From Aliarcobacter butzleri (GTDB lineage: Bacteria; Campylobacterota; Campylobacteria; Campylobacterales; Arcobacteraceae): a stretch of 64,000 nucleotides of DNA. Under the pieces are notes generated by a model. The model ran no database searches and was not told the origin of the DNA. It saw only the letters and a list, made by a program, of their open reading frames with translations. Positions 12,825 through 17,909 of this stretch are shown one piece after another; within the stretch, counting starts at the first letter, position 1, and the number at the start of each line of letters is the position of its first letter. The stretch is taken from NCBI RefSeq assembly GCF_900187115.1, contig NZ_LT906455.1, positions 1,178,001-1,242,000 on the forward strand. The letters run 5' to 3'. A program made the position numbers and the translations under genes.

Positions 12825-13193
12825 ATGGTTAAGCTTTTAATAGTAGATGACTCTACAATGTTAAGGGATATGCTAAATTACGCATTAAATGAGGGTGGTT
12901 ATACTAACGTAACTGAAGCAGTTGATGGTGTTGATGGTTTAGCAAAAGCGAAAGCTACGAACTTTGATTTAATAATTACTGATGTTAATATGCCAAATAT
13001 GGATGGTTTAACTCTTATTGGGGAATTAAGAAAATTATCACAATATTCTAAAACACCTATTTTGGTTCTTACTACAGAAAGAAGTGATGAAATGAAAGCA
13101 AAAGGTAAAATGGCAGGAGCAACAGGATGGATTGTAAAACCTTTTGTTCCCGATCAGTTACTAAAAGCAGTTAATATAGTTTTAAGTAGATAA
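12825..13193 (+). CDS. cheY: Chemotaxis response regulator CheY
   Basis: A 122-residue stand-alone receiver domain. Acidic residues D8-D9 (VDDS), the phospho-acceptor D53 (ITDVNMP), the switch Thr in LTTE near residue 83 and K105 (IVKPF) are all in place. CheY-P formed by CheA binds the flagellar switch. It is the first gene of a cheY-cheA-cheR-cheD-cheB cluster, 12 bp before cheA, and is preceded by GAAGGG as ribosome-binding site. No CheW, CheV or receptor gene is found in the cluster. Confidence 0.92.
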   Translation: MVKLLIVDDSTMLRDMLNYALNEGGYTNVTEAVDGVDGLAKAKATNFDLIITDVNMPNMDGLTLIGELRKLSQYSKTPILVLTTERSDEMKAKGKMAGATGWIVKPFVPDQLLKAVNIVLSR

Positions 13194-13205
13194 AAAGGAG
13201 CTTTT

Positions 13206-15263
13206 ATGTCGTTTGATATTTCTAAATATAGAGAGATGTTTCTTGAAGAAGCAGTTGAACTTTTTGAATCAGCTGATAATGTGCTTTTAGAAGCAGAAAA
13301 CAATGGTTCTTTAACAGATGATGAAATGGGTCAATTATTCCGAGATGTACATACATTAAAAGGAAGTGGCGCTTCTGTAGAACTAGCTTTTTTTGCTGAA
13401 TTTACACATGATGTTGAAAACTTAATGGATAAATTAAGAAGTCACAAAATTGAATTTGTTCCAGAAATGGCTGGAACATTGATTGATGGGCTTGATGTAA
13501 TGAAAGAGATATTAGATCTTGAAGTATCTAATCAAATGACTAGGGAAAAATTTACAGAAATGACAAGCTCTTTGTTAGAAGATATTAGAGCTTATTCTAA
13601 TGGTGGTACAGTTAAAAAAGAAGAAGCACCAAAAATCGAAGTAAAAAAAGAAGAAGTTATATCTTCTAATTCTTCTGAAAACAAAGAAAATTTTGGATTT
13701 TTTGATAATGGTTTAAATGAACAAAGAGATAGTAAAAGTCAACCTTATGGAATTTTTGCAGATGATGATATGAATGAAAATCATAAAAATTACGGTTTTT
13801 TTGATGATAATTTAGAAAAAAAATCAAATGATTTAAATGATGAAGATTTTAAATTAGATAATAGCAAAGAAGATTTTGGTTTCTTTGATGATATGCCAAG
13901 CATAACTCCTGATGCAGTTATGAAAACAAACGATATAGAAGAACAAAAAGAAGAAACTCCTGTAGTTGTTCAAAAAGAATCTGAAGTAGCTACAAGAAGA
14001 ATGAAAAATAATAATGTAGAAGAAGAAGCTAAAAAAGTTCCTTCAAATAATAACAATAGTATTAGAGTAAATTTAGATAAGATTGATTTATTAATGAATA
14101 ATGTAGGGGATTTGGTTATTACAAATGCTATGCTTACTCAATTTTCTTCAACAATAGAAGAGACAAAAACTAGAGGTTCAGTTTTAGAAAGATTAGAATT
14201 ATTGGAAAGACATATCAGAGATATGCAAGATTCTATCATGAGTATTAGAATGGTTCCTATGGATTCAATATATTCAAAATTCCCAAAAGTTGTAAGGGAT
14301 ATTTCTAAAAAACTTAACAAAAAAGTAGAATTCAAACATTATGGAGATAATGTTGAAATTGATAAAGCTATGATTGAAGGTTTAACAGATCCTTTAATGC
14401 ACATTATTAGAAACTCTTTAGACCATGGTATTGAAATGCCAGAAGATAGAGTTGCTCTTGGAAAACCAGAGACAGGTTCTATTAGTATTTCAGCAGAACA
14501 AGCAAATGGGCAAATGATTATTACAATACAAGATGATGGAAAAGGTATTGATTCTGAAAAAGTTGCACAAAAAGCTTTAGAAAAAGGTCAAATTGATGAA
14601 AATCAATATAATGCTATGACTAATAATGAAAAAGCATTATTAATTTTTGGAGCTGGTATTTCAACTGCTGATAAAATCACTGATATTTCTGGACGTGGAG
14701 TGGGAATGGATGTTGTTAAAACAAACATTCATAAATTAGGTGGAGTTATTAACCTTGATACTGAAATAGGAAAAGGTACAACAATTACAATTATGTTACC
14801 TTTAACTCTTGCTATTTTAGATGGATTAGATATTAGAGTAGCAAACCAAAAATATATTTTACCATTAAGTTCTATTGTTGAATCACTACAACCAACTGCT
14901 GATATGATCAAAAAAATCGGAGATGGAACACAAGATCTATTAATGTTAAGAGAAGAATTCATACCAGTAGTTAAATTACATCAACTATTTGGTTTAGAAA
15001 AAAGTTTTGAAAAACTAGAAGATGGAATGTTAATTGTTGTTAAATCAGGAAATACAAAAGTAGCTTTATCTATAGATGAATTCTTGAATCAACACCAAGT
15101 TGTTGTTAAACCACTTGATAAAAACTTTAGAAGTGTTCAAGGAATAGGAGCAGCTACTGTTAAGGGAGATGGAAGTATAGGTCTTATTTTAGATGTTGTG
15201 GGAATTATTAATGCACAAATTAAAATAGAAAAAGATATGAATGCTATGAAGAAGGCTTCTTAA
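13206..15263 (+). CDS. cheA: Chemotaxis histidine kinase CheA with repeated linker motif
   Basis: CheA autophosphorylates in receptor arrays and passes phosphate to CheY and CheB. Domains in order: Hpt (P1) with H49 in VHTLKGSGAS; a low-complexity acidic linker of residues ~135-280 without a recognisable P2 domain; dimerisation P3 (~285-345); ATPase P4 with N-box RNSLDHG near residue 402, DDGKGID and GRGVGMDVV near 496; and a CheW-like P5 from ~535. The 685-residue chain lacks the C-terminal receiver domain found on CheA of Campylobacter and Helicobacter. The linker carries four related motifs (FGFFDN, YGIFAD, YGFFDD, FGFFDD) at residues ~162, 181, 196 and 223. These may replace P2 as docking sites; that is inference. 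Confidence 0.93.
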   Translation: MSFDISKYREMFLEEAVELFESADNVLLEAENNGSLTDDEMGQLFRDVHTLKGSGASVELAFFAEFTHDVENLMDKLRSHKIEFVPEMAGTLIDGLDVMKEILDLEVSNQMTREKFTEMTSSLLEDIRAYSNGGTVKKEEAPKIEVKKEEVISSNSSENKENFGFFDNGLNEQRDSKSQPYGIFADDDMNENHKNYGFFDDNLEKKSNDLNDEDFKLDNSKEDFGFFDDMPSITPDAVMKTNDIEEQKEETPVVVQKESEVATRRMKNNNVEEEAKKVPSNNNNSIRVNLDKIDLLMNNVGDLVITNAMLTQFSSTIEETKTRGSVLERLELLERHIRDMQDSIMSIRMVPMDSIYSKFPKVVRDISKKLNKKVEFKHYGDNVEIDKAMIEGLTDPLMHIIRNSLDHGIEMPEDRVALGKPETGSISISAEQANGQMIITIQDDGKGIDSEKVAQKALEKGQIDENQYNAMTNNEKALLIFGAGISTADKITDISGRGVGMDVVKTNIHKLGGVINLDTEIGKGTTITIMLPLTLAILDGLDIRVANQKYILPLSSIVESLQPTADMIKKIGDGTQDLLMLREEFIPVVKLHQLFGLEKSFEKLEDGMLIVVKSGNTKVALSIDEFLNQHQVVVKPLDKNFRSVQGIGAATVKGDGSIGLILDVVGIINAQIKIEKDMNAMKKAS

Positions 15264-15268
15264 ATAAT

Positions 15269-16111
15269 ATGCCAGAGAAAAATGAAGTTCATGAAAGAAT
15301 AAAAAAACTTCTTTATTCTTTGACAGGGATTACTCTGACAGATAATAAAGATATTATGATTTCTAATAGAATCGATAAATTAAAAAGAAATTGTAAATTT
15401 TATGGAGATATTGAGGACCTATTAACTTCTATTGAAAAAGGGGATAATGTAACAGAGTTTATTAACTCTTTTACAACAAACAAAACTCATTTTTTTAGAG
15501 AAGATTTTCATTTTGTTGATTTAAAAAATAGAGTTCTTCCTGAATTTGCAAAAAGTGGTCAAAAAGTAAATATGTACTGTTCTGCTTCTTCAACAGGAGA
15601 AGAACCATATTCTATGGCAATGACAGTTTTAAAAACAAGTGAAGATTTAGGAAAAGCTATAAATGCTTCAATTATTGCAACTGATATTGATACGAATGTA
15701 TTACAGTATGCAGCAAACGGTATTTATAGATATTCTAAAGCTTCAAAAGAGTTTCCAGAATGGATAAAACCACAAAAATATTTTAAAAGAAGAGTTCAAC
15801 AAAACCTTTCTGGTGAAGAAGTTTTAATAAAGGTAAATGACGAATTAAAAAGAATGATTAACTTTCATGTTATGAATTTAAATGACTCTTCATATCCTTT
15901 TTCGAAAAATCAATTTGATGTGATTTTTTGTAGAAATGTTTTGATATATTTTTCAGTAGAAGACCAAAATACAATATTAAAAAAATTGTTTGCTCATCTA
16001 AAAATAGGTGGAACTTTATATTTAGGACATTCTGAAAATCCTCATGACTTGATAAAATATGTAAAAAGAATAGGGCAAAATATTTTTATAAAAGAGAAGG
16101 AAATCTTTTGA
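15269..16111 (+). CDS. cheR: Chemoreceptor glutamate methyltransferase CheR
   Basis: CheR transfers methyl groups from S-adenosylmethionine to glutamates of chemoreceptors for adaptation. Residues ~1-80 form the helical N-domain (including SFTTNKTHFFRE, the typical TNxTxFFR motif) and residues ~85-280 the methyltransferase domain with MYCSASSTGEEPYSMAM, a variant of the usual W-SAGCSTGEEPYS signature, and VIFCRNVLIYF near residue 215. No TPR extension is present. It starts 5 bp after cheA and overlaps cheD by 4 bp. Together with CheB and CheD it makes a full adaptation system. Confidence 0.92.
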   Translation: MPEKNEVHERIKKLLYSLTGITLTDNKDIMISNRIDKLKRNCKFYGDIEDLLTSIEKGDNVTEFINSFTTNKTHFFREDFHFVDLKNRVLPEFAKSGQKVNMYCSASSTGEEPYSMAMTVLKTSEDLGKAINASIIATDIDTNVLQYAANGIYRYSKASKEFPEWIKPQKYFKRRVQQNLSGEEVLIKVNDELKRMINFHVMNLNDSSYPFSKNQFDVIFCRNVLIYFSVEDQNTILKKLFAHLKIGGTLYLGHSENPHDLIKYVKRIGQNIFIKEKEIF

Positions 16112-16797
16112 TTATAATAGGGCATAAAGACGGAAGTATTGAAAAATCTTCTTCAGTTAGATTTACTGACAAAACAAAAGGATATAACACTTACACAGTA
16201 ATTGGTGGAGAATTTGCTGTTGGTAGTGATGAAGATAATGTTGCTTTTAAAACACTTCTTGGTTCTTGTGTTGCTATTATGTTCTATGATAGAATGAAAA
16301 AAATAAAAGCTATGAATCATTTTTTATTACCTAATACCAACGATAATCGAAATGACATGAAATATGGACTTTATTCAGTTGAAGCAATGCTGAATGAGAT
16401 GTATAAACTTGGATGTAGTAAAACAAATATGGTAGCTAAAATATCAGGTGGAGCGGATATTATGTCACTAGATTTATCTTCTTCATCTAGTGATACTATT
16501 GGAAAAAGAAATGTTGAATTTGCTAAAAGTTTTTGTAAATCAGAAGGTTTTAAAATAGTTAGCGAACATACAAGAGGAGATAATGGTAGATTAATTCTTT
16601 TGGCTGATGATTTTGAAACTTTTATTAAAGTTACTCAAAAATCTGAAACTAACAGCAAAATTCTATCTACAGAAAAATCTTTACAACAAGAGATCAAAAG
16701 AGAGCCAGTTATCAAAGAATATATTGGTGGTGTTGACTTATTTGATAATAATAAAAATAAAAAAGCTGAACCAGAAATGGAAATCGAGCTTTTCTAA
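16108..16797 (+). CDS. cheD: Chemoreceptor glutamine deamidase CheD
   Basis: CheD deamidates glutamines on receptors. The catalytic Cys and His are visible: C54 in TLLGSCVAIMFYD and H71 in MNHFLLP, with KISGGADI near residue 110. The protein is 229 residues, about 60 longer than many CheD proteins; the extra part is a variable C-terminal tail (after ~165) rich in Lys and Glu with a GGVDLFD element near the end. Translation starts at TTG 16108 with AAGGA five to eight bases upstream, inside the cheR stop codon. No cheC is nearby, so CheD probably works with CheR/CheB alone. Confidence 0.88.
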   Translation: MIIIGHKDGSIEKSSSVRFTDKTKGYNTYTVIGGEFAVGSDEDNVAFKTLLGSCVAIMFYDRMKKIKAMNHFLLPNTNDNRNDMKYGLYSVEAMLNEMYKLGCSKTNMVAKISGGADIMSLDLSSSSSDTIGKRNVEFAKSFCKSEGFKIVSEHTRGDNGRLILLADDFETFIKVTQKSETNSKILSTEKSLQQEIKREPVIKEYIGGVDLFDNNKNKKAEPEMEIELF

Positions 16798-16829
16798 AAA
16801 ACTTTTAAAAGATAAATAGGAAAGGGTGT

Positions 16830-17909
16830 ATGTACACAGTTTTAGTTATAGATGATTCTGCTTCAATGAGAAGTATACTTAAAGATATGATAAATTCTAT
16901 TGAAGATTTTGAAGTAATAGCTGTAGCAACTGATGCTTACGATGCTAGAGAAAAAATCAAAGAGTACGAACCAGATTTAGTAACAATAGATATAAATATG
17001 CCTAAAATGGATGGTGTTACATTCTTAAGAAATTTAATGCGTCTTCATCCTATGCCAGCAGTTGTAATCTCTGGAGAAAGTGTTAGAGGAAATGATATTT
17101 TTGATGATGGAGCAGTAGGTTTTATTCCTAAACCAAACTCTGGTGAACCTATGTCAAATTTTGAAGCTAGAATAAAAGATACTTTGTTAAATTTAACATT
17201 CCTTTTGAGCCGATATACTTTAAAAAAATCGCCTGCTATCAAAAAACCAACAACTTATAAATCAACACATAATGTTGATTACAAAGTACATCCTGATGAA
17301 GTTATACCTCTTAGAGCAGCAAAATTCCCAGGAGCAAAAATAATAGCAATTGGTTCATCAACAGGTGGAGTTGAATCTTTATTAAGAGTTTTTAAAAGAC
17401 TTCCTAGTGGATTACCTCCAATTGTTATAACTCAACATATTCCTTATGGTTTTTCGAACTCTTTAGCTCATAGATTAAATGATCATTCAGAAGTTGAAGT
17501 TTGTGAAGCAAAAGATGGATTGACCTTAGAAAAAGGACATGCATATTTAGCCCCAGGAAATATGCATTTAACAATCGAAAAATATGGAAATGATTTTAAA
17601 ACGAGATTACTTGATACAAAAAAAGTAAGCCAGCATAAACCAAGCGTTGATGTTCTTTTTAGATCAGTTAATAATGCTGTTGGTGGTGGAGCAATGGCTG
17701 TTATGATGACAGGTATGGGAGATGATGGAACAATAGCCATGAAAGAATTATTTGATAATGGAGCATATACAATTGCGCAAAATGAAGCAAGTTGTGTAGT
17801 ATTTGGTATGCCTATGAAAGCAATACAAGCAGGAGCTGTTAAAGATATAGTTCATTTAGATGAAATTGCTGATTATATTATTGATTTTTCAAAGGGGAAG
17901 CTTAAATAA
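16830..17909 (+). CDS. cheB: Chemotaxis methylesterase/response regulator CheB
   Basis: CheB removes receptor methyl groups when its receiver domain is phosphorylated. Residues 1-~120 are the receiver with D54 in VTIDINMPKMDG and IPKP near 103. Residues ~165-355 form the methylesterase with the catalytic Ser in AIGSSTGGVESL near residue 175, His in ITQHIP near 202, and Asp in MTGMGDDGTIAM near 297. Full-length two-domain CheB is notable because Campylobacter jejuni CheB lacks the receiver. The stop codon TAA abuts the ATG of the next gene with no gap. Confidence 0.94.
   Translation: MYTVLVIDDSASMRSILKDMINSIEDFEVIAVATDAYDAREKIKEYEPDLVTIDINMPKMDGVTFLRNLMRLHPMPAVVISGESVRGNDIFDDGAVGFIPKPNSGEPMSNFEARIKDTLLNLTFLLSRYTLKKSPAIKKPTTYKSTHNVDYKVHPDEVIPLRAAKFPGAKIIAIGSSTGGVESLLRVFKRLPSGLPPIVITQHIPYGFSNSLAHRLNDHSEVEVCEAKDGLTLEKGHAYLAPGNMHLTIEKYGNDFKTRLLDTKKVSQHKPSVDVLFRSVNNAVGGGAMAVMMTGMGDDGTIAMKELFDNGAYTIAQNEASCVVFGMPMKAIQAGAVKDIVHLDEIADYIIDFSKGKLK

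Follow-up and report, generated by a model that had tools for sequence, protein, structure and literature searches.

A conserved array of aromatic-acidic motifs in the P2-less CheA linker of Aliarcobacter butzleri and its putative role in REC domain docking

The linker between the P1 and P3 domains of the A. butzleri CheA is predicted to be disordered and contains no P2 domain. Instead it carries four short aromatic-acidic motifs that are conserved across the Arcobacteraceae. We give about even chances to the explanation, drawn from sequence comparison, that this linker is an array of linear docking motifs that would replace P2 in receiving REC domains.

Domain organisation of CheA and its linker

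The cheA gene lies in the 64,000-nucleotide stretch of A. butzleri DNA analysed here (the window), and a protein search of the genome found it to encode the only CheA. The gene order cheY-cheA-cheR-cheD-cheB spans positions 12825-17909 of the plus strand. PMC9321776 reports this order for the F7 class, which Arcobacter acquired laterally, and the window CheA is assigned to the F7 class following that study. The features are:

12825..13193, plus strand: cheY (F7-CheY), immediately upstream of cheA and in the same frame
13206..15263, plus strand: cheA, 685 aa; P1 (Hpt), disordered linker with four motifs, P3, P4 and P5, without P2
13605..14060, plus strand: P1-P3 linker, CheA residues 134-285, from Pfam, AlphaFold2 and column identity
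13692..13709, plus strand: motif 1, FGFFDN, residues 163-168; family consensus [DE]NFGFFDDDLNEQ[RK], also written DNFGFFDDDLNEQ
13746..13763, plus strand: motif 2, YGIFAD, residues 181-186; consensus YGIFADDDI; G182 and F184 invariant in 20 genomes
13791..13808, plus strand: motif 3, YGFFDD, residues 196-201; consensus NYGF[FY]DDELEEIS
13875..13892, plus strand: motif 4, FGFFDD, residues 224-229; consensus [ED]NFGFFD[DE]MPxITPxS; FGFFD invariant in 20 genomes
15269..16111, plus strand: cheR, downstream of cheA
16108..16797, plus strand: cheD; tail with GGVDLFDN (16726-16749) and terminal EIELF (16780-16794)
16830..17909, plus strand: cheB, contains a REC domain

Pfam recognised Hpt (residues 8-97), H-kinase_dim (284-347), HATPase_c (394-534) and CheW (540-670) in CheA, and no domain between Hpt and H-kinase_dim. 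The linker alone (residues 134-285) matched no Pfam family at E ≤ 0.1, and no sequence recognisable as a P2 or CheY-binding domain was found between P1 and P3 of the window CheA. Nor was there a sign of an alpha/beta fold spanning some 80 residues: AlphaFold2 gave the linker no fold and low confidence, and its model of CheA alone was poor overall. The view that a P2 is present and merely too divergent for Pfam finds no support in these predictions. In the family alignment, mean column identity was 0.42 for the linker versus 0.90 for P1 and 0.88 for P3-P5.

A preliminary description of this DNA had claimed that CheA is devoid of a folded P2 and that its linker holds four GFFD-type motifs. The Pfam and AlphaFold2 results bear out the former, and the motifs were indeed located, with starts at residues 163, 181, 196 and 224, at most one residue from the positions given there. 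None of 200,000 shuffles of the window linker produced four copies. A DNA pattern matching the motif occurred 13 times in the genome, and three of these occurrences were in cheA. Since the reversed control was equally frequent (13), the motif is no general feature of the genome. Outside cheA, none of the matches that encode the motif within an open frame lies in a recognisable chemotaxis protein, and this genome-wide pattern thus gave no indication of the motif elsewhere in chemotaxis proteins.

Conservation and spread of the motifs

Relatives comprised 31 genomes of the genus, 61 genomes of the family and 20 loci on genome contigs, and copies were counted by the pattern [FYWILV]G[FILVY][FY]. 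The preliminary description had taken the motifs for repeated short linear motifs with variable spacers and proposed to count them in Arcobacteraceae. This view was confirmed by their conservation across the family, with two to four copies in each of 61 distinct linkers (four in 50/61, three in 6/61, two in 5/61). The mean was 3.74 copies, compared with 0.016 when each linker was shuffled, and the maximum of 2000 shuffled means was 0.08. While the motifs make up 9.4% of the positions in these 61 linkers, they contain 610 of the 679 aromatic residues (90%). The only invariant linker columns in the 20-genome alignment are G182, F184 and F224-G-F-F-D228, which belong to motifs 2 and 4. In the family alignment, motif columns had a mean identity of 0.70 and the remaining linker columns one of 0.37; when four windows of 6 residues were placed at random 20,000 times, no placement equalled the motif columns. 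Shuffles, placements and alignment identity rule out chance or low complexity as the origin of the motifs.

The 50 four-copy linkers keep slot identity, order and spacing (median spacings of 18, 15 and 28 residues), and 29, 31, 21 and 8 distinct DNA 15-mers were counted for slots 1 to 4, respectively. Since the slot peptides are kept while the codons vary, it is the peptide that is under selection. The slots also retain their own sequences under varying DNA spellings, and the copies are therefore not recent duplicates. Three genomes of the genus (L032-L034) have lost motif 1, and their motif 4 is shrunk to GFFDD or DFFED, which hints at FF[DE]D as the minimal motif core. Where Arcobacteraceae encode a second CheA, this protein lacks the GFF motif and contains a P2-like segment; apart from one weak Pfam match (L170, E 0.014, below the cut-off), that segment was recognised by visual inspection.

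The same CheA lineage occurs in two other Campylobacterota families, for which we use the tool labels f6 and f9. Linkers of f9 carry two to four copies of [AP]FELFD[DE] (FELFDE type), and those of f6 mostly one or two copies of GF[MAV]LFDPxxI, with three FELF/YELF copies in one f6 member (L196). At least one motif copy was found in 94/94 linkers of the clade (76 Arcobacteraceae, 10 f6, 8 f9) and none in 27 CheAY linkers, while 18 P2-type CheAs showed a looser core pattern at about the shuffle level. The motif is mutually exclusive with P2 and with the FliM-like sequence described below. In a maximum-likelihood tree of P3-P5, Arcobacteraceae, f6 and f9 are monophyletic (100/100 support). Their sister is a proteobacterial group (98/90) that includes a P2-less betaproteobacterial CheA (CP099603.1), the linker of which reads VAFGFFDDAEATPAS and contains FGFFDDAE. 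The Cupriavidus CheA that adjoins CP099603.1 in the tree lacks the motif and contains a P2-like segment. When plasmids were searched by tblastn with the motif-bearing segment of the betaproteobacterial CheA, the self-match alone was returned.

Aromatic residues clustered at regular spacing within a charged linker would also suit a chain of stickers and spacers: aromatics of the acidic, disordered linker would then mediate weak contacts between CheA molecules, as clustering or condensation, and no specific partner would be involved. We regard this as very improbable, since neither an invariant FGFFD nor slot-specific sequences are needed for stickers, and since f6 and the betaproteobacterium have single-copy versions.

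Two further observations concern other parts of these proteins and other families. Four f9 CheAs (L188, L189, L060, L187) have two Hpt domains, and another type of P2-less CheA, in a family labelled f8 (L064-L067, L074, L079), contains a different conserved linker segment, FHDDVDxxIQxLI...LPPEERDMDLI.

FliM-like sequences and candidate partners

The preliminary description had also proposed Helicobacter and Campylobacter for comparison. In the other families sampled here, the CheAY linkers are devoid of the motif and have a FliM-peptide-like sequence instead. This sequence (MSPEEVEA / LSPEELDA) was present in 22/27 P2-less CheAY linkers of other Campylobacterota, with 0.04 expected by shuffling; FliM in these genomes starts with [FI]LSQ[DE]EIDALL. 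Judged by this likeness, the CheAY sequence may be a docking peptide for CheY or for the protein's own REC domain. The form [ML][ST][PADE]EE[VIL][ED]A is seen in CheAY of L062, L063, L068-L070, L076-L078, L081-L083, L103 and L178-L185. A strict FliM-like pattern ([LMF][ST/D]x[DE..][ED/Q][ILVM][DE]A-like) was found in 4/10 f6 linkers and in 0/76 Arcobacteraceae linkers. By this pattern the latter have no FliM-type peptide, which counts against the docking of REC domains. In f6 the aromatic core is merged with a FliM-like helix (GF[MA]LFDPAQIEA, e.g., FALFDPAQIEA). P2-less CheA linkers of Azospirillum (L250, L262) read VTLDELEALWN / LTLDELEAIWN, which resembles the FliM peptide. The CheA linkers of L076 and L083 contain a segment of about 40 residues (NINLDEITLENADEIDLDSLSPEELDAVLEHLVELRNK) twice in tandem.

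The preliminary description had named CheB as a potential docking partner. As a conserved partner CheB has to be dismissed: no CheB match was obtained in five f9 genomes, among them two that are 99% complete, whose CheA has two to four motifs of the FELFDE type. The f9 genomes with the motif also had no CheD above the cut-off and no CheC, so that all three proteins are ruled out as conserved partners. This leaves the REC domains of CheY or CheV, CheW-like domains, receptors, and CheA itself as candidates. CheB is a possible extra client in A. butzleri. We tentatively entertain that in Arcobacteraceae the motifs serve more than one client, CheB among them, and in f9 only CheY and CheV, which would extend the docking of REC domains and not exclude it. 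In favour of this, the operon includes cheB, whose product in Arcobacteraceae carries a REC domain, a similar GGVDLFD is found in the CheD tail, and E. coli P2 binds both CheY and CheB. However, motif-bearing f9 genomes have no CheB, which makes it an added client at most. The extra CheD tail, with GGVDLF[DG] and the C-terminal EIELF, is kept in relatives and is loosely similar to the CheA motifs. EIELF is also similar to EWESF, the receptor pentapeptide in this genome, where about half of the receptors have a [DE]WESF C-terminus. Mimicry of this CheR/CheB tether (xWxxF at the C-terminus) by CheA was rejected, since the motifs are internal and have no W in the window.

From sequence comparison, REC domains of CheY or CheV are most likely the partners. 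They are favoured because the motif occurs where P2 is missing, and because further P2-less CheAs have FliM-peptide-like sequences in the corresponding position. F7-CheY would be the most likely docking partner of the CheA motifs. The residues by which E. coli CheY contacts FliM are missing from F7-CheY of Arcobacter (PMC9321776), and therefore the REC face used may differ.

The neighbours of cheA are cheV, a receptor gene, cheW and cheY in f9, and cheV, a receptor gene and cheW in f6. Since CheV, CheW and receptors adjoin cheA in both families and are common to all motif-bearing lineages, the motifs could bind a REC-less array component (CheW, the CheW-like part of CheV, receptor tips or CheA P5) and act in array organisation or polar positioning. 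A CheA region of Vibrio that is present only together with ParC/ParP binds ParP (PMC5706961), which is in line with such a role. Nevertheless, we consider a REC-less partner rather unlikely, as it leaves unexplained why the motif is found where P2 is missing and why other P2-less CheAs have FliM-like sequences. Beside cheV, the f6 che cluster (L211 9456-10442; L212 437-1771) encodes a protein with a C-terminal REC domain and an N-terminal half that resembles a WD40-type propeller.

Since cheY and cheA share a frame, AlphaFold2 was applied to the natural read-through product, from CheY across the stop codon to CheA residue 285, with 38 aligned sequences. The linker was mostly unstructured, with pLDDT values of 52-62 near motifs 3-4 versus about 36-46 elsewhere in the linker. 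The same relative rise (residues 201-240) was seen in the poor model of CheA alone, and CheY is thus not singled out. This slightly higher confidence in CheA alone could reflect docking of the motifs within CheA, on P1 or P4, by which access to the kinase would be controlled. We judge this quite unlikely: the effect is small and the model poor, the number of motifs varies from one to four while P1 and P4 are conserved, and docking within CheA gives no reason for motif loss when P2 is present.

Proposed function and relation to known systems

Loss of P2 is well documented and applies to over half of CheAs, in which the region is called unstructured and motifs are not mentioned (PMC10782961). 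In E. coli, P2 speeds phosphotransfer to CheY (PMC10782961), and a replacement of P2 would be useful, given this acceleration. That phosphotransfer in E. coli can dispense with P2 (PMC10782961) counts against the proposal. We infer from the sequences that each motif would dock a REC domain belonging to a client of CheA phosphotransfer, primarily CheY and also CheV. The general motif form is aromatic/hydrophobic - x - [F/L/I] - F - [D/A/S] - [D/E/P], with acidic residues downstream of it. The REC face used would most likely be alpha4-beta5-alpha5, as for FliM and CheZ peptides and for P2 in E. coli. A bound client would be kept near the phosphorylated Hpt domain next door, and multiple copies would raise the local client concentration. 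Each Arcobacter genome has five CheY paralogues served by one kinase (PMC9321776), which would be a reason for several docking sites, and on a speculative note the four distinct slots could serve different paralogues.

A broader idea, which we put forward as possible though doubtful, is that P2-less CheAs commonly recruit response regulators by linker motifs. These would be FliM mimics (CheAY, Azospirillum) or aromatic-acidic repeats (Arcobacteraceae, f6, f9, some betaproteobacteria), and the four non-equivalent slots of Arcobacter would split the output among CheY paralogues and CheV. If conserved linear motifs replace P2, capture and choice of response regulators become testable with short peptides, and the array suggests how the more than half of CheAs without P2 might still deliver their signal. 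FliM-like peptides on the kinase would compete with the motor for CheY-P, and this would alter views of signal release and termination, including in relatives of Campylobacter and Helicobacter.

In the open-access literature we found no published description of these CheA linker motifs, and a study of chemosensory evolution in Campylobacterota does not discuss the linker (PMC9321776). With the P2 domain (PF07194, PF09078) the Arcobacter linker shares the location between P1 and P3 and the expected recruitment of CheY, but it is foldless, has no Pfam match and presents four short motifs in a disordered chain. The FliM N-terminal peptide, a type that binds CheY better in its phosphorylated state, is likewise a short acidic-hydrophobic, disordered segment with a hydrophobic pair followed by a helix-capping S/D, and LFDPAQIEA of f6 comes close to the FliM sequence. 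In contrast to it, the Arcobacter motifs have no I-D-A helix, are fourfold, and lie on the kinase and not on the motor. The CheZ C-terminal peptide is a short acidic-aromatic linear peptide recognised by CheY; unlike the CheA motifs it is C-terminal, present in a single copy, and part of a phosphatase. The receptor C-terminal pentapeptide is also a short aromatic tether for chemotaxis enzymes in the same genome, but is C-terminal and contains tryptophan, whereas the CheA motif is internal and contains Gly-Phe-Phe. Finally, the ParP-binding LID of Vibrio CheA, which we liken by its description, is known only together with ParC/ParP, but like the Arcobacter linker it is an extra conserved CheA region that recruits a partner.
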